Shown: one piece after another, positions 23,221 through 34,540 of the stretch
How positions within the stretch are numbered: position 1 is the first letter of the stretch
Layout of the letters: the number at the start of each line of letters is the position of its first letter
NCBI GenBank assembly: GCA_949373085.1
Contig: CASICJ010000023.1
Location: forward strand, 1-64,000
Reading direction: 5' to 3'
Length of the DNA stretch: 64,000 nucleotides
Origin: an uncultured Verrucomicrobiales bacterium
GTDB taxonomy: Bacteria; Verrucomicrobiota; Verrucomicrobiia; Verrucomicrobiales; Akkermansiaceae
Notes under the pieces: generated by a model
What the model was told of the DNA's origin: nothing
Database searches by the model: none
Seen by the model: the letters and a program-made list of their open reading frames with translations, nothing else
Position numbers and translations under genes: made by a program

Positions 23221-23865
23221 TTAGAAATTTAAATGAGTTTCTAAGATTTCGGATATTGAAAAGGCGCTGGCGCTACAATTTTGCGCAACTGAGTCTCTTT
23301 GAACATAGCGGAAGAATCCGATGAAAGTATCAACTTCAGAAACCGTCTCTAAGTCACTCACTCCGTCTCCAACCATGATGAACTTGTTTAGCCCAAGTTT
23401 TGCACGGATTGATCTAATGATTTCAGTTTTCCCTCCTGATCTCGTTGTCGGGTAATTTTCGTCGAATCCAAGATATTGTCCCCTGGTATCAAATTTTAAG
23501 GGAACCGCTTCAACTTTTGCGATGCCAAGTTCTCGAGCAAGAGGAGAAATACAAGGTTCGAAGCCACCAGAGATAATAATGCACGTCCATCCTTTTTCCT
23601 GCATTTTGTTGATGGTCTCTTTTGCGGTCGGCTCGACCGTCTTCAGATACATCCTCCCAACTGCTTCACACTGAGCAAGGGTCGGCTGAATGAGATCAAG
23701 ACGTCTAGCAAAGACTTCCTCGACAGGCACTTTACCATCCATGGCAAGATTCGTTAAGTCCTCAACTTCCTTAAAGATCTGGTCCCCGGCGATTCGAGCC
23801 AACTCATCGACACCTTCAATGGATGAAAGGGTTGAGTCGCAGTCAAAGGCGATGATTTTTTGCAT
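23221..23865 (-). CDS. serB: Phosphoserine phosphatase (SerB-type HAD hydrolase)
   Basis: 214 residues. HAD motifs: FDCDSTLSS (nucleophile and acid Asp), IIISGGFEPC (motif II Ser), SGGKTEIIRS (motif III Lys) and FIMVGDGVSDLETV (motif IV acidic pair). The cap segment with VPVEEVFARRLDLIQP matches SerB-like phosphatases. It would hydrolyse phosphoserine to serine; homoserine-phosphate specificity is possible within the family. It is the last gene of a four-gene minus-strand run (caspase-like, bioB, L,D-transpeptidase, serB) with gaps of 6-18 bases. Confidence 0.88.
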   Translation of the reverse strand: MQKIIAFDCDSTLSSIEGVDELARIAGDQIFKEVEDLTNLAMDGKVPVEEVFARRLDLIQPTLAQCEAVGRMYLKTVEPTAKETINKMQEKGWTCIIISGGFEPCISPLARELGIAKVEAVPLKFDTRGQYLGFDENYPTTRSGGKTEIIRSIRAKLGLNKFIMVGDGVSDLETVSEVDTFIGFFRYVQRDSVAQNCSASAFSISEILETHLNF

Positions 23866-23871
23866 GATGGG

Positions 23872-24333
23872 TTAGGATATTTGAACCGCCGTACCTATCG
23901 GAGTGAGTTCGAAGAGTTCCAGCATCTTTTTGTTTGCTAGCCGGATGCAACCGTGTGACGCGGGCTTCCCGATCAGGTCTTCAGCATGGGTTCCGTGGAA
24001 ATAGATGTAGCGGTGGTAGGTGTTGCTGTTTTCGGGGTCAAGTCCGTGGAGCCAGAGGATGCGTGTGAGGATGGCGTCGTCTGACTTCTCGCCTTGCCAA
24101 ATTCTCCGTGGGAGGCGTCCTTTGAATGAGGTGTGGAGTGGAGCTCCTTCGCCGATACGTTCACGAACTACAAAGTTTCCGATGGGCGTTCGATAGGATC
24201 CCTCTTCAAATCCCGCGCCCTTGGCGGCAGTTGAAGCGAATGCTTCAAAAATATTTTTCCCCTCTCTAAATAGAGTGACTTGTTGCCGATCGAGAGAAAC
24301 TTCGATACGGCAACGATGGTCTGGCCAATTCAT
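23872..24333 (-). CDS. L,D-transpeptidase (YkuD domain)
   Basis: 153 residues consisting of the YkuD domain alone. Catalytic signature YFHGTHAEDLIGKPASHGCIRL, with His in HGT and the nucleophilic Cys in SHGCIRL. No signal peptide or LysM domain is apparent, so secretion is unclear unless an upstream start exists. These enzymes form 3-3 peptidoglycan crosslinks or attach lipoproteins. It is tightly packed between bioB and serB. Confidence 0.92.
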   Translation of the reverse strand: MNWPDHRCRIEVSLDRQQVTLFREGKNIFEAFASTAAKGAGFEEGSYRTPIGNFVVRERIGEGAPLHTSFKGRLPRRIWQGEKSDDAILTRILWLHGLDPENSNTYHRYIYFHGTHAEDLIGKPASHGCIRLANKKMLELFELTPIGTAVQIS

Positions 24334-24348
24334 GCGGGATAGTGAAGA

Positions 24349-25344
24349 TCAGCCGAGTTGTGGTTCGGCAGGACGTGATTCATCAGGATCAGGCGCCTCT
24401 AGCCTCCGGTTTGGTTCCTGGGGTTTCATGCCAAGGCGGTCGATGAGAGCGAGGTCTTTTTCGATTGCGGGATTCTTGGCGGTGAGGAGTTTATCTCCAT
24501 AGAAAATAGAGTTGGCTCCGGCAAAGAAGCAAAGAGCTTGTGCTTCTTCGGACAATTGCGTTCGCCCAGCTGAAAGACGGACTTTAGCTTTGGGAACCGC
24601 AAGCCTAGCTAAGGCTATGATCCGGACGAGTTCGAAGACGTCGACTCCCTGTTTTTCGGCCAGCGGAGTGCCGGGCATAGGCATGAGGGAGTTAATCGGA
24701 ACGGACTCGGGTTGTGGGTTGAAGCTGGAGATGACTTCTAGCATTTTGAGACGGTCTTCGGTAGTTTCGCCAAGTCCTAAAATACCGCCGCAGCAGATTG
24801 ACATTCCGGCATCTTGTGCATGACGAATTGTGTTGAGGCGATCTTGGAAAGTGTGGGTGGTGACAATCTTAGGATAGTGTTCCGGAGAGGTGTCGATGTT
24901 GTGGTTGTAGGCAGTCACTCCGGCATCTTTAAGCTTTTCCGCTTCGGAAGGTCCTAGCTCACCTAAAGTAACACAGACTTCCATACCGAGTTCGGAAACA
25001 TCCCGAACGATATCGAGGACTTGCTCAAATCGCTTGGTTCCCTCACGAACACCGCGCCAGGCTGCTCCCATGCAGAAACGGGTTGAGCCGCTTTCGCGGG
25101 CAGCCTCGGCTCGCTTCATGATGTCGCACTTCTCCATGAGACGTTCGGCATCGACACCACTTTTGTAGCGAGCGGATTGAGCGCAGTAGGAGCAATCTTC
25201 GGAGCAGCCTCCCGTCTTAATGGAGAGGAGCGTGCAGAGCTGGACTTCGGCTGCCGGCCAATTTTCCTCGTGGATCTGGCGGGAACGCTGGATCAGGTCA
25301 AAAAGTGGGAGTTGATAGAGGGTGTTGAGTTCTTCAAAGGTCAT
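24349..25344 (-). CDS. bioB: Biotin synthase
   Basis: 331 residues. Radical-SAM motif Cys47-x3-Cys51-x2-Cys54 in GGCSEDCSYCAQSARY. Further BioB landmarks are TRFCMGAAWRG, the TLG segment in VCVTLGELG, NHNIDTSPEHY, and VRLSAGRTQLSEEAQALCF with the Arg of the auxiliary 2Fe-2S cluster. BioB inserts sulfur into dethiobiotin. The C-terminal tail is proline- and charge-rich. No other bio gene adjoins it, so biotin genes are dispersed here. It starts 18 bases after the caspase-like gene. Confidence 0.96.
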   Translation of the reverse strand: MTFEELNTLYQLPLFDLIQRSRQIHEENWPAAEVQLCTLLSIKTGGCSEDCSYCAQSARYKSGVDAERLMEKCDIMKRAEAARESGSTRFCMGAAWRGVREGTKRFEQVLDIVRDVSELGMEVCVTLGELGPSEAEKLKDAGVTAYNHNIDTSPEHYPKIVTTHTFQDRLNTIRHAQDAGMSICCGGILGLGETTEDRLKMLEVISSFNPQPESVPINSLMPMPGTPLAEKQGVDVFELVRIIALARLAVPKAKVRLSAGRTQLSEEAQALCFFAGANSIFYGDKLLTAKNPAIEKDLALIDRLGMKPQEPNRRLEAPDPDESRPAEPQLG

Positions 25345-25362: not shown

Positions 25363-26034
25363 TTACCGAATCCACTCGCCGGAAATGGTGGGCATTTTAC
25401 CGAGGGAGAGCGCTGCATAGTCGGTTTTTCCCTTCGCGCCAACAAGTGGGAATCCCATACTGCGTTTCCAGACGGCAGACATACTTTCACCTGTATGGCA
25501 GCCCCAGCTTTGGCAAAAAGGATTCTTCGTGAACGCGCGGCGGTTAATCTTAACGAGGTCTCTTTCATGAATCCAAGTCTGGCTGACGGCCATTACGTCA
25601 CTGCCGTAGTCGAGCATTAAGCAGTGGCGGTTGGAGTGGCCGAAAAAATCGAAAGTGACAATATTTTGCTGGAGGTTGATTGTGGAAATCGCTTGATCAC
25701 CCGTATTGATCCAAACAAGTTTGGCTTTCCTTTTGATGGCCTGTTCTGCGACCCATGAGGTATATGGCTTTTTGTCGTCACGCCCACGGGTAAGGTAACC
25801 GTTTTTGTAAACGATCCAAGTGATCGTAGAATCAGAGCCGTAGGAATTTCTTATTTCATCCATTCGCATGGTCGAGGCTCGAACGAAATTGGCCCACCAG
25901 TTATCATGGCGATCCTGTTCGACACGAAGGTTTTCCCACTTCCGTGAGGCTGGTCCGCCACAAAGAATCACATGCTGACTTCCAAAAAGGGGCAGTCCTA
26001 GGATGAGTAAAAGTGAAAGGGCCCAAAAGTTCAT
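25363..26034 (-). CDS. Secreted protein with caspase-like (clan CD) His/Cys pattern
   Basis: 223 residues. The signal peptide is MNFWALSLLLILGLPLFGSQ, followed by HVILCGGPASRKWENLR. Later come IVTFDFFGHSNRHCLMLDYG and, about 30 residues on, FCQSWGCHTGESMSAVW. A hydrophobic strand ending in GHS and a second strand ending in small-GC-x-T/S-G-E is the layout of clan CD cysteine peptidases (caspase, gingipain and DUF4347 types), where this His and Cys form the dyad. No family name is certain. It heads a tightly spaced run with bioB. An alternative is a non-peptidase exported Rossmann-like protein. Confidence 0.75.
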   Translation of the reverse strand: MNFWALSLLLILGLPLFGSQHVILCGGPASRKWENLRVEQDRHDNWWANFVRASTMRMDEIRNSYGSDSTITWIVYKNGYLTRGRDDKKPYTSWVAEQAIKRKAKLVWINTGDQAISTINLQQNIVTFDFFGHSNRHCLMLDYGSDVMAVSQTWIHERDLVKINRRAFTKNPFCQSWGCHTGESMSAVWKRSMGFPLVGAKGKTDYAALSLGKMPTISGEWIR

Positions 26035-26328: not shown

Positions 26329-27306
26329 TTAGAGGGCGTCGAAGGTAAGTAGCATCTGGCCAGCTTCTGGTGGAGACGAGCCCTTGCTGTGGAGGAAAGC
26401 AGTGAAAATCAGGAGGTCTTGTCCGCTTTGATCTTTGATTCGGGAAACTGTCGCGTTTGCAAAAGCGGTCGAGTTCCCCGGTGTTTTAAGATTCAGCCTT
26501 TTTAGGGGAAGCCCATTAGAATCGCACAAGAAGAGTCTCCATGCACCCCAGTCCCTGCGGGTTCCCTGAACTTCTTGCAAGTAATACGATTTTTCCTTCC
26601 AGATGAATTTGCTCCGGTCGCCGATATTACCTTCAGCACCAAGCTTGATGAACGCCTGATTCAGTTTTCTAGAAGGGGTGGCTTTCCATTTTTTAAAGTT
26701 AGTGAGGGTGCCTGATGCCAGTTGATCAACTCGTGCATATTTGAAGTAGTGAAAGCGAAGATGGATATTTGAGGTGGCAAGATCGCCGTTTTTGATATCG
26801 ACCTGTTCAAAACTAGGAGTGCCTTCAGCAGTTGGGGCGAGTTTTCTAGGTAAGTCGATCTCGTGATCATATTTCCCAGAGCGGAGTGCGTTTAAATCAG
26901 GGTAGGATCTCAAGCGGATCCAACATGAATTGGGAGCATCTTTTTCGTAAGCAAGTAGGAAGGTCCCATCATCAGTCTCGTGAACTGTCGCTTGCGAACC
27001 ATGACGGTCCAACTCGATAATATGCCTCCAGTTCCTAAAGTCTGTGGACTCGGAAAGAAGGATTGAGAATACCCCGTTCCGAAGGGAGTGTGACACTCCA
27101 AAACAGGTGCCGTTTTTTGTCAATCGAGGTTGAAAGACATCAAGACAATCCATCCCGTGGCCCTCATTATCGCAAAGCTTAAAGATAAGAAGTTTGGCTG
27201 CTTTCGTATTCTCTAATCGATTCGAAAGGGTCAGAGCTTCTTCGCTGAAACCTTGGCTGATTTGAAGGACGTGGAGCGAAATAAAAATAGCACAGTCAAA
27301 TCTCAC
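26329..27306 (-). CDS. Secreted beta-propeller-like protein (glycoside-hydrolase-43/32-like fold, tentative)
   Basis: 325 residues. The signal-like N-terminus is MRFDCAIFISLHVLQISQG. The body shows repeated strand patterns with 'F.P.l..ng..fgvshslrng.fsillseStDfrnW', typical of five-bladed propeller glycosidases that begin blades with 'yYLyyS.D...W'. Visible examples are LLSESTDFRNWRHIIELDRH, TVHETDDGTFLLAYEKDAP and FIWKEKSYYLQEVQGTRRDW. Catalytic acids cannot be assigned, so the enzymatic role is open. The 294 bases before the next minus-strand gene hold no gene I can see. Confidence 0.7.
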   Translation of the reverse strand: MRFDCAIFISLHVLQISQGFSEEALTLSNRLENTKAAKLLIFKLCDNEGHGMDCLDVFQPRLTKNGTCFGVSHSLRNGVFSILLSESTDFRNWRHIIELDRHGSQATVHETDDGTFLLAYEKDAPNSCWIRLRSYPDLNALRSGKYDHEIDLPRKLAPTAEGTPSFEQVDIKNGDLATSNIHLRFHYFKYARVDQLASGTLTNFKKWKATPSRKLNQAFIKLGAEGNIGDRSKFIWKEKSYYLQEVQGTRRDWGAWRLFLCDSNGLPLKRLNLKTPGNSTAFANATVSRIKDQSGQDLLIFTAFLHSKGSSPPEAGQMLLTFDAL

Positions 27307-31228: not shown

Positions 31229-34200
31229 CTACCACTCGCAGAGTGACTCGATGTGGTCGGCAGAGCCATCTCGGAGCCAGGCGTCCAGTTGGGACGGGTC
31301 TTTGAGTTGCTGACCGCGGGATCTTGGAACAATGATGAATTTTGAATCGATGCCGGAGAGGGTGGTGAGGTCACCCCAGAGTTTTTCGAATTGCGTGACG
31401 GGGAAGACGTCTTCCTGACCATGGCCCCAGCGCTTTTTCACTTCTTTGAGCGTGATGTAAGTGGGAAGAGTTGAGGCAACTTTTCGGATGCCGGCGAGGA
31501 TCTTTCTCTCGTCACGAGCAAGAATATCATCGCGGGTGAGGCCAAAGAGCCCGAGAAGTTTGTCGATGTCAATCCAGGTTGTCATCGAGTTGTAGTAAGA
31601 GAGTATGAACTCGTCTTCCTCGCGCGGCATCGCGAGGCCCTCGAGGAGTCTCGGGCGGCCTTCGATGGAAGCGAGGCCGCCGCCTCTGTCTTCAAGTCGG
31701 CGAGTGATAACTTCGAAAGTGAGTCCAGTTTTACTCGCTAAGTGGTGGCCAAGCAGGGCGGGATCAACATCGGCCCCGAGAGTGTCGATATTGTGCAGCA
31801 TTAGCGTTTTGAGCTGTGGTCGGTCGGTTAGAAGATCGGCGAGAGTCCCATTGAGAAGAAGATTGGGAACTTCGTAAAAGTGACCGACAGGATGGAGGCA
31901 CTGTAGCGGGAGGTTGTCGGTGTAATCATTCGATTCCCCGGTTGATTGGGCCCAGTTGAGCAAGGAGGATCTCACGGAGTCACGCATTTTTTGCTGCTGC
32001 TCATCGAGGACTTGCTGGGGCATTTCCTCCCAGGCAAAGCGCAGGTCACTCACAGTTGGAATCATGCGAAGGCCCACTGACCGACCTTGGGACAAGTGGA
32101 GCGAGCCAGGATAGTGGTAATCCTCAACGTTATCTAAAAACTGACGTGTCGGTTGGTGGGTTAGGTAGGATGTTGTAAAGACATGGGGAATGGTCGAGCC
32201 TGCTTCGAGGCCGCGCTTGCGGGACTTGCCTAGGTGGGTTTCGATAAAGGTGCGATGGCGACCGCGAAGACGAGCGAAGGGGTGGAGAGCCTTGCAGACG
32301 CCTGCACCTTGGGTCCAGCGGGAACCAGCTCCAGCGGCGAGCGTGATGATACCGACTTCCCCGTTAGCGAGTGCTTGTTCGCCAACCACGAGATCTTTCG
32401 TAGAATCTGATCTGGTGAAATCAGTGATGTCTGCAGGTGAGACATCCTTGATAAGAGTGGTTGGAGGTAGGCGGTTTTGGGCGAGTCCGATTCTACCTTC
32501 GAAAAGGTCTTTGCGAATTTGTTCGTGTTGTCTTTGATCAAATCCGTTTTTGGCGAGCAGTTTGGAAAGTGAGTTATCACCGTTCGCGTCGTCATCGGTA
32601 TGCGGAATGAGTGTTTCGAAGAGGGACTCGACAGAAGAAGAAAATATGGATTTTGTCCGGCAGGCCCGGGCGAATTGATCGAGTTCAGCGCGGGTTGTCG
32701 GTGAGAGTTTCTCGGGAGGAGTCCGCAGCGTGTCTGCGAGAGCGAGGTGGTAGTAGGGGGGAGGTAGGAGGGCTTCGTCTCCATGATGGATCTGACCAAA
32801 GGTCCCATGTGGGTTGATTGCAAAGTCGTAAACGACGGGATCCATGGCGAAGGGGAGGGCGTTTTCGAGCTCCCGCTTGGTCTGAATCATAATGGCGTGA
32901 ATGATATTGAGGGCTTCCTGCTTACGTGATGGTTCGACAATAAAGCCCATGCCACCGCCGGACATGCCGCCGAGCATCCAAAAGCCCCAGAAGTCTTCCC
33001 CAAATTTCTTGGAGACTCGATCGATGAGAGTTTCGGTGAAGTGATTGGTGGCCCAAGGAATGATCGTTTGGAGCGGTCCCCGAAAGTTCTCGGTGGTGAG
33101 GCGTCCCAGTTCTCGGATGTTACCGCTAGCGAGGGCTGTTACGATTTGATCGAGGAGTTCGAGAGCTTCTTGGCGTGCCTCCCATTCCTCGGAGGATCGG
33201 AGAAGATATTTCTCGGTGACCATTTCGAGGATGGGGCCGACGTTTTGAGCCATGCCTCCGTGAACGAGAATTAAGGAATCGGTGAGGGCCTGCCGAGCGG
33301 AGTTCGGGATTTCCTCATGGTTAAATACTTTGTGTTTGGGCATGAGGCGGCCCCGCGAGATTCCTTGTTCTGGATCGGTTTCGCCGGCAAGTTCACCTTC
33401 GATAAGTTTGATTCCTGGCCAGACGCCGCCGGAGTCTTGCCAACCACCGCCGGAGCCACCGATCCATTCGCCTAGGATGGCGCGGGCTAGGACAAGACGT
33501 CTTTCATTTTCGGTGAGTTCGCCGGTGAGCGACTGGGTTTGTCCAGTAGCGCGCATGCAAGCGCTTATGAGGGCGGCGAGGAGATTTGTCGAAACGGCTA
33601 AGCGAGAGCCTTTTGGGATGTCGTTAACCGAAGAGATGATTTCAATTCCGCGATTCGGGCCAACGAGTCTATTGAGGAGCTCGGCGAGGGATTTTCCGGA
33701 ACCCTCGATGCCGGGTGGGATGATGCCGGATGCAATGATGGCCGCTTTTAGGAGTCCGAGATAGTCTTTAGCAAAGTCGAAGACATCGGCTAGAGAGGTA
33801 ATTGTGGCAGTGGCTTTAAGGTCAATAGACGTGAGTTTGAGGACGGGTTCATCGACGATACGAAAGTAGGCCTCGACCGGAGGTTTGGGTTCGGCGTCGT
33901 GCCCATGAATAGCGAGATCAACTGAGACGTTGACGACCCGGGCTCCTTGGGGGAAGTCCATGCCCAGGAAAAAAATGTCCGACCAAGCCGAGTGGGTAAG
34001 ATCCATGCGAACAGGGGTGCGTTCGCAGAGAATTGGAAAGCGATGTTGGTCCTGCTCAAGGAGTTCATGACGGATGCGGAGTGGGTGATCAGCTGGGTGC
34101 CCCATGCGGAACATCCACTGGTTTCCGCGGACCGTCCGGACTGATTTTCGGACTTGATTAGCCAGAGTCTGGAAGGCGAGTTGATGGTAGGCTGACGAGA

Positions 34201-34540
34201 GAGCGGAGCAAATACCATCGGACGGGCCTTCCCGATCTTGGACTTTAAGAAAGACTTCTATGGCCTCCTCAAATTGGCGCCCGAGAAGATTCTCATAACC
34301 ATCGAAGGGAATGGATCCCGCATCTGAAGTGGGGAGTTTTTCGGGGAGGTGAAATTGATGAATGGCTTGCAGAAAAAAGATGGCACGGACGCGATGATAG
34401 AGATTTTCTGATGTGCGGCGGAAGGCGTCTAACGCGGAGCATTCTTGCAAGAGCCCCTCGGTGTCGAGGGAAACACAAGCCTCCGCTAATGAGCGATCGC
34501 GTGTTGCGGGGTCCTCTGCGGTGATGAGTGAGACTAACAT
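31229..34540 (-). CDS. Sugar kinase (GHMP, FKP-like) fused to UDP-sugar-pyrophosphorylase-like domain
   Basis: 1103 residues. About 1-165: helical, unrecognised. About 170-430: GHMP kinase of the fucokinase/FKP type, with CERTPVRMDLTHSAWSDIFF, DIPKGSRLAVSTNLLAAL near 310 and GGWQDSGGVWPGIKLIEG near 363. The usual kinase wordings 'PVRIDLAGGWTD' and 'GSGLGTSS' are altered. About 430-725: helical linker. About 728-1100: UDPGP-type nucleotidyltransferase with an intact loop LAAGAGSRWTQGAGVCKAL, HPVGHFYEVPNLLLNG and LMLHNIDTLGADVDP. By homology it would phosphorylate a sugar at C1 and make the NDP-sugar. Domain order is reversed relative to Bacteroides FKP (pyrophosphorylase first). It starts 17 bases after the GalU-like gene. 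Confidence 0.85.
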   Translation of the reverse strand: MLVSLITAEDPATRDRSLAEACVSLDTEGLLQECSALDAFRRTSENLYHRVRAIFFLQAIHQFHLPEKLPTSDAGSIPFDGYENLLGRQFEEAIEVFLKVQDREGPSDGICSALSSAYHQLAFQTLANQVRKSVRTVRGNQWMFRMGHPADHPLRIRHELLEQDQHRFPILCERTPVRMDLTHSAWSDIFFLGMDFPQGARVVNVSVDLAIHGHDAEPKPPVEAYFRIVDEPVLKLTSIDLKATATITSLADVFDFAKDYLGLLKAAIIASGIIPPGIEGSGKSLAELLNRLVGPNRGIEIISSVNDIPKGSRLAVSTNLLAALISACMRATGQTQSLTGELTENERRLVLARAILGEWIGGSGGGWQDSGGVWPGIKLIEGELAGETDPEQGISRGRLMPKHKVFNHEEIPNSARQALTDSLILVHGGMAQNVGPILEMVTEKYLLRSSEEWEARQEALELLDQIVTALASGNIRELGRLTTENFRGPLQTIIPWATNHFTETLIDRVSKKFGEDFWGFWMLGGMSGGGMGFIVEPSRKQEALNIIHAIMIQTKRELENALPFAMDPVVYDFAINPHGTFGQIHHGDEALLPPPYYHLALADTLRTPPEKLSPTTRAELDQFARACRTKSIFSSSVESLFETLIPHTDDDANGDNSLSKLLAKNGFDQRQHEQIRKDLFEGRIGLAQNRLPPTTLIKDVSPADITDFTRSDSTKDLVVGEQALANGEVGIITLAAGAGSRWTQGAGVCKALHPFARLRGRHRTFIETHLGKSRKRGLEAGSTIPHVFTTSYLTHQPTRQFLDNVEDYHYPGSLHLSQGRSVGLRMIPTVSDLRFAWEEMPQQVLDEQQQKMRDSVRSSLLNWAQSTGESNDYTDNLPLQCLHPVGHFYEVPNLLLNGTLADLLTDRPQLKTLMLHNIDTLGADVDPALLGHHLASKTGLTFEVITRRLEDRGGGLASIEGRPRLLEGLAMPREEDEFILSYYNSMTTWIDIDKLLGLFGLTRDDILARDERKILAGIRKVASTLPTYITLKEVKKRWGHGQEDVFPVTQFEKLWGDLTTLSGIDSKFIIVPRSRGQQLKDPSQLDAWLRDGSADHIESLCEW

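Follow-up and report, generated by a model that had tools for sequence, protein, structure and literature searches.

Peptidases of clan CD are defined by the order and the surroundings of a His/Cys dyad, and the sections of PMC4357240 that treat this definition place the His at the C-terminal end of core strand three and the Cys at that of core strand four. The same sections describe a glycine adjacent to the His as common to all clan CD families and attribute the P1 specificity to helix 1/loop 1 and to loops 4 and 5, where loop 5 contributes an aromatic residue. In Pseudomonas aeruginosa, Tce1 and Tce2 are putative cysteine protease effectors of the T6SS that are carried in Hcp3 rings, according to the cited part of PMC13323088, and Tox-Caspase is a known class of polymorphic toxin tips (passages of Zhang et al. 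2012, PMC3482391). Potempins are small lipoproteins encoded beside the Tannerella KLIKK proteases, which they reportedly inhibit (cited part of PMC7296668).

The bacterial clan CD proteins that we met in this analysis were otherwise toxins, secreted virulence peptidases and signalling proteins. Here we describe an uncharacterised exported protein of which Akkermansia and many environmental Verrucomicrobia carry one copy; if it is an active peptidase, it would represent a clan CD protease with a housekeeping role in the envelope of bacteria. We studied it in a stretch of 64,000 nucleotides from an uncultured Verrucomicrobiales bacterium, hereafter called the window. Among the open-licence PMC papers listed in our searches we found none on the peptidase family.

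Gene, active-site motifs and predicted fold

Exactly one open reading frame (ORF) fits positions 25363-26034. It lies on the minus strand, starts with ATG and encodes the clan CD-like exported putative cysteine peptidase of 223 aa, described here from the ORF itself, its relatives, their alignment, a model and structural comparison. Residues 1 to about 19 (25978..26034, minus strand) form a hydrophobic stretch that we take as an export signal, a call made from the sequence and by a simple Kyte-Doolittle rule for a hydrophobic N-terminus. By the same rule 110 of the 117 standalone relatives carry a hydrophobic 8-mer ahead of the first strand. In the window peptidase this strand starts right behind the hydrophobic N-terminus and a single domain then fills the protein, which agrees with the small exported protein of the preliminary description.

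The search for relatives yielded 190 loci with 189 full-length proteins, of which 119 remained after removal of redundancy. In all 119, two RHS-borne copies included, G26, H43, D44, F50, R83, H133, C179 and W221 are identical. The putative catalytic His133 is part of a GHS motif (residues 132-134; codons at 25633..25641, minus strand) and the putative nucleophile Cys179 of a GCHTGES motif (residues 178-184; 25483..25503, minus strand), both assigned from the alignment and the model. As H133 and C179 do not vary among the relatives, the two motifs are far beyond chance. The glycine beside the putative catalytic His, G132, is present in 115/119 relatives. The invariant pair His43-Asp44 (codons at 25903..25908, minus strand) belongs to an HDxxWxNF motif just before helix 49-65, which the alignment, the model and a comparison with the cited sections of PMC4357240 suggest as the region of the substrate pocket. 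Residue 206, on the loop ahead of the last strand, is Tyr in 114 and Phe in 5 of the 119 relatives. Judged by their position in the model, the HD pair and residue 206 would fill the roles of the clan CD P1 pocket.

There was no internal stop among the listed relatives, and within the window's genus we obtained dN/dS values of 0.07-0.11 in five pairs, with 2 of the 7 pairs saturated. The peptidase is under strong purifying selection.

For the AlphaFold2 model we used an alignment that comprised 108 of the 119 non-redundant sequences, the remaining 11 having been excluded in part because their starts were uncertain, and obtained a pLDDT of 95.4 and a pTM of 0.90. In the model H133 sits after the strand 125-131 and C179 after the strand 168-176. 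We judged the match of these strands to the third and fourth core strands by their order and read the dyad placement from the strand positions; in these terms the predicted structure has a caspase/haemoglobinase fold with the His just behind the third core strand and the Cys just behind the fourth, as in the clan CD definition given in those sections of PMC4357240.

When 999 PDB chains were aligned to the model, legumain was the top structural match (Z 11.9, rmsd 3.9, 168 aligned residues, 14% identity). It was followed by Tce1 (Z 11.2, 143 aligned residues) with the lowest rmsd among the clan CD rows (3.0), and by the peptide ligase VyPAL2 (Z 11.1). Further clan CD matches were SAVED-CHAT (Z 10.5), metacaspase 9 (9.2), MALT1 (9.0), gingipain (8.8) and caspase-3 (8.5), while the best Rossmann fold in the same alignment, BdcA, reached a Z of 9.4. 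In a library of viral structures, annotated giant-virus caspases fill 6 of the top 7 rows, with a best E of 8.7e-4. The Foldseek search of the model against the PDB yielded no match at E <= 0.001, and Rossmann-type enzymes head its list. This ranking is not significant and the fold claim therefore rests on the structural aligner, the viral library and the invariant dyad.

A Rossmann oxidoreductase, as read from the first Foldseek rows, was rejected: every Rossmann row scores below legumain, Tce1 and CHAT, and the dyad does not vary. The same rows could also be taken to favour a protein that has the caspase fold but no peptidase activity, such as a binding protein or a Rossmann-like enzyme. We consider this quite improbable, in view of a His and a Cys that are shared by every relative and are placed in the model as in clan CD, and of the scores of legumain and Tce1, both above all Rossmann rows. 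The predicted fold and the dyad support a clan CD-like protein with putative peptidase activity. The preliminary description had seen the GHS and GCHTGES elements at strand ends and had read them as the clan CD pattern, with caspase and gingipain as folds to compare; in the model each dyad residue lies just after a core strand, and the order of the dyad, the glycine beside the His and the matches from legumain to caspase-3 all point the same way. By the strand positions in the model, the outcome that would have spoken against this reading, a His and a Cys far apart, did not appear.

The assignment to a family is a different matter. As the preliminary description had stated, no known family is matched: the peptidase gave no Pfam match at E <= 10 and none in NCBIfam at E <= 1, and a search of the PDB sequences returned a chance-level match only (E 0.03, 47 residues). 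With a profile of the 108 relatives nothing better than E 1.1 was obtained against the PDB sequences. For C13 (PF01650) the window peptidase has no match, nor does the family occur among the matches listed for the 108 members (25 of the 38 families), and the C-terminal prodomain of legumain (LSAM) is absent, as the protein ends at its last strand with residue 223. C14 (caspase/metacaspase) gave no Pfam match for the window peptidase either and is not found among the same 25 of 38 listed families. For C25 (gingipain, PF01364) the window peptidase has no match and one of the 108 members matches at E 0.11. DUF4347 (PF14252) does not match the window peptidase, its cut-off not being reached, and matches 3/108 members weakly (best E 0.056). 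As possible bridges to these families we detected no PF01650 members in 57 class genomes and a DUF4347 gene in 1 of 93, below the cut-off. By its predicted fold and its dyad, the peptidase is most suitably placed in clan CD as a new family, outside C13, C14, C25 and DUF4347.

Distribution and genomic neighbourhood

The peptidase occurs in 92 of 97 relative genomes and in 34 of 35 genera, which makes it near-universal in the order. Across the class we found it in 97/188 genomes, the same count by single sequence and by profile, and nearly every positive genome has one copy. In a sample of the whole phylum 52 of 288 genomes match, all but one within the class; the sole match outside (G374) is an RHS tip. 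A contig scan, which used 8-residue patterns of the window peptidase and thus covers close relatives only, named Akkermansia, Akkermansiaceae, Prosthecobacter, Chthoniobacteraceae, Spartobacteria and other Verrucomicrobia. The gene is intact in two genomes of 0.9 Mb, G112 and G120, with a dN/dS of 0.14 between them. G112 is a Xiphinematobacter endosymbiont, a genus that lives in nematodes (cited part of PMC4607532). Intact genes in genomes of this size and a low dN/dS form the pattern of a conserved cellular gene. A mobile or phage origin was rejected, as there were no relatives in viral contigs (searched with the single protein or the alignment), plasmids or phages.

In the window the gene opens a tightly packed run on the minus strand, as the preliminary description had noted. 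It is followed after 18 bp by bioB, biotin synthase (24349..25344; TIGR00433, E 1.5e-114), after another 15 bp by a gene for a YkuD-domain, L,D-transpeptidase-like protein (23872..24333; PF03734, E 1.2e-19) and after 6 bp by the last gene of the run, a SerB-like HAD phosphatase (23221..23865; TIGR00338, E 1.6e-33, below the cut-off). The upstream ORF (26329-27306, minus strand, 325 aa, GTG start) is separated from the peptidase gene by 294 bp and has no Pfam match over the cut-off and no NCBIfam match. The largest among the ORFs listed for the window, with 1103 aa, lies at 31229-34540 on the minus strand.

We scored the downstream same-strand ORF mechanically at 155 of 174 loci, without thinning close relatives. 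In the window, and likewise in a cluster of 50 of the 155 loci that spans at least eight families (40 of the 50 members were listed), bioB directly follows the peptidase gene. This position could be taken to mean that the function of the peptidase is tied to biotin synthesis. However, over all 188 genomes bioB passes the cut-off in 146, namely 88 of the 97 genomes that carry the peptidase and 58 of the remaining 91; it is missing from 9/97 peptidase genomes, both 0.9-Mb genomes among these, and the peptidase is predicted to be exported. On these control counts we rejected the biotin link, to which we would give hardly any credence. The co-location proposed in the preliminary description is therefore real as a neighbourhood, whereas the functional tie did not hold. 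The adjacency is probably incidental; the neighbourhood of bioB and the peptidase is old, yet gives no reason to infer a biotin role.

A partner lipoprotein and relatives at RHS tips

A better candidate for a partner than biotin synthase is a second exported protein, of ∼160-250 aa, whose gene directly follows that of the peptidase at 16 non-redundant loci. Three of these 16 adjacent partner proteins were scanned and gave no Pfam match over the cut-off. A profile of the 16 partners matches in 97/188 class genomes, with one copy in nearly all. Both proteins are present in 95 of the 188 genomes and neither in 89; two genomes have the peptidase only (G179, G239) and two the partner only (G028, G187). 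The Fisher value for this association overstates the case, as the co-occurrence mainly follows clades: except for single genomes, a family has either both proteins or neither, so that the association amounts to few independent events and not to 95. In 38 genomes from 13 families partner and peptidase are adjacent on the same strand. They are apart in 57 of the 95 genomes with both, the window genome included, where the partner lies on a different contig (G000 C4, 67476-67883). Most partner sequences of this unlinked type carry a lipobox, and the best shared neighbour of the unlinked partner occurred at 4 of 20 loci. In G226 (C7:35250-36430) two copies of the partner lipoprotein stand in tandem behind the peptidase gene. 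Both genes are intact in G120, whereas in G112 the partner gene is broken (an open piece of 80 aa) beside the intact peptidase. This break, and the failure to find a partner in G179 and G239, show that the partner is not an absolute requirement.

The model of the partner shows a confident barrel-like core with loose ends (pLDDT 79.5, pTM 0.67). Its best structural matches are weak, namely DUF1344 (Z 5.9), NigD-like (4.7) and potempin A (4.2-4.4), followed mostly by other OB folds, and the Foldseek search returned OB-fold proteins only, all with E above 0.001. The idea of an inhibitor is therefore one of analogy and gene pairing and not a fold result. By this analogy the partner may hold or restrain the peptidase.

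Distant homologues of the peptidase form the C-terminal tips of RHS proteins. We detected four full-length copies: L188 from the window's own genus, L170, L221 from the genus of A. muciniphila, and L277. For L188, L170 and L221 the tip lies directly behind the RHS core TIGR03696 and keeps HDxxWxNF, Arg83, the His and the Cys. The L277 tip follows an RHS-like boundary read by eye; again by eye, its His and Cys are retained and its HD motif is altered. Read by eye, each of the four tips is followed by a small ORF that contains a membrane segment, as would be fitting for an immunity protein. Two further copies, L223 (broken) and L224 (partial), were not counted as full-length. In the Akkermansia genus, L221:4465-6047 and L223:3779-5739 show the same arrangement of an RHS caspase-like tip and then a small membrane ORF, and in L223 a similar-looking membrane ORF remains behind the broken tip. 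A profile of the RHS form matches 203 of 384 class genomes, nearly all via the standalone gene, and strong scores for the RHS form itself were observed only in G266, G244 and G565. In G374, from another class of the phylum, the RHS tip L222 (2788-3933, minus strand) exceeds the DUF4347 cut-off (28.9 vs 24.6 bits) and has, in addition, a weak match to the peptidase profile; on these sequence matches it is a possible bridge from DUF4347 to the peptidase family.

The homologous tips raise the question whether the peptidase is a domesticated or standalone toxin-effector akin to them and directed against competitors, with the small lipoprotein as its immunity protein. The RHS core ahead of such tips, the small membrane ORF behind them in the copies examined and the co-occurring lipoprotein would all fit, as would the place of Tox-Caspase among the known toxin classes (passages of PMC3482391). 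The window peptidase, however, has its export signal and one domain and no RHS core N-terminal to it, such as L188, L170 and L221 have, and there is no cognate immunity gene directly downstream, where bioB follows (in other families it is the lipoprotein). RHS copies are rare, and the standalone gene is near-universal, single-copy, constrained and kept in an obligate endosymbiont, unlike polymorphic toxins. We regard a toxin-effector as unlikely.

Proposed role and comparison with known systems

We consider it fairly likely that the protein is a housekeeping periplasmic clan CD-type cysteine endopeptidase with a lipoprotein as regulator or anchor. After Sec export and removal of the signal, the single domain would act in the periplasm, or on the outer membrane via its partner. 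Cys179, activated by His133, would attack the peptide bond, and the HD motif (residues 43-44), which precedes helix 1, would form the P1 pocket together with the aromatic residue 206 ahead of the last strand. Because the peptidase has no pro-domain, its activity would most likely be restrained or placed by the co-occurring small lipoprotein, in the manner of the potempin lipoproteins. The substrate would probably be one or a few envelope proteins of the own cell, since there is a single copy of the gene, the constraint on it is strong and even an endosymbiont with a 0.9-Mb genome has retained it.

Clan CD enzymes also act as transpeptidases, with GPI8, the plant legumain ligases and PorU as the comparisons. 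An enzyme of this kind would cleave envelope proteins and attach them to an anchor for display on the surface. Export, the single copy and the lipoprotein partner fit such envelope assembly, and peptide ligases are among the best structural neighbours (VyPAL2). Sequence cannot separate a ligase from a hydrolase, however, and two of the genomes with the peptidase gave no partner; we hold a transpeptidase to be about as doubtful as the toxin-effector.

A broader view goes beyond the housekeeping endopeptidase and is put forward tentatively, as a speculation with a somewhat better chance than either of these alternatives. The peptidase and the OB-like lipoprotein could form a lineage-specific, possibly essential module for envelope maturation or surface attachment in Verrucomicrobia, with PorU or sortase as its functional counterpart, and the caspase-like tips of RHS toxins could have been taken from the same family or the reverse. 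A conserved envelope protein that is homologous to RHS toxin tips bears on the origins of toxin domains, and the paired lipoprotein offers an immediate handle on the peptidase. For Verrucomicrobium spinosum a transposon essentiality set is published (PMC12283558, in the part cited).

Compared with the known systems, the window peptidase is closest in fold to legumain (C13). Both have His and then Cys at the ends of core strands in the model, with a further His before helix 1; legumain differs by the PF01650 domain and the C-terminal prodomain. DUF4347 is linked to the family by the weak matches of three members and by the distant tip L222, whereas the window peptidase itself lacks a match. The Tox-Caspase toxins share homologous domains at RHS tips within the same class (L188, L170, L221, L277), in contrast to the standalone, single-copy window peptidase, which has no RHS core. 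With the potempins, as the cited part of their description presents them, the partner shares a small lipoprotein with an OB-like barrel that is paired with an exported protease, though the structural match is weak (Z 4.4) and here the protease gene comes first. Tce1 is a similarly small domain and the second-best kind of fold match; unlike Tce1 and Tce2, the window peptidase carries an export signal of its own and occurs almost throughout its clade.
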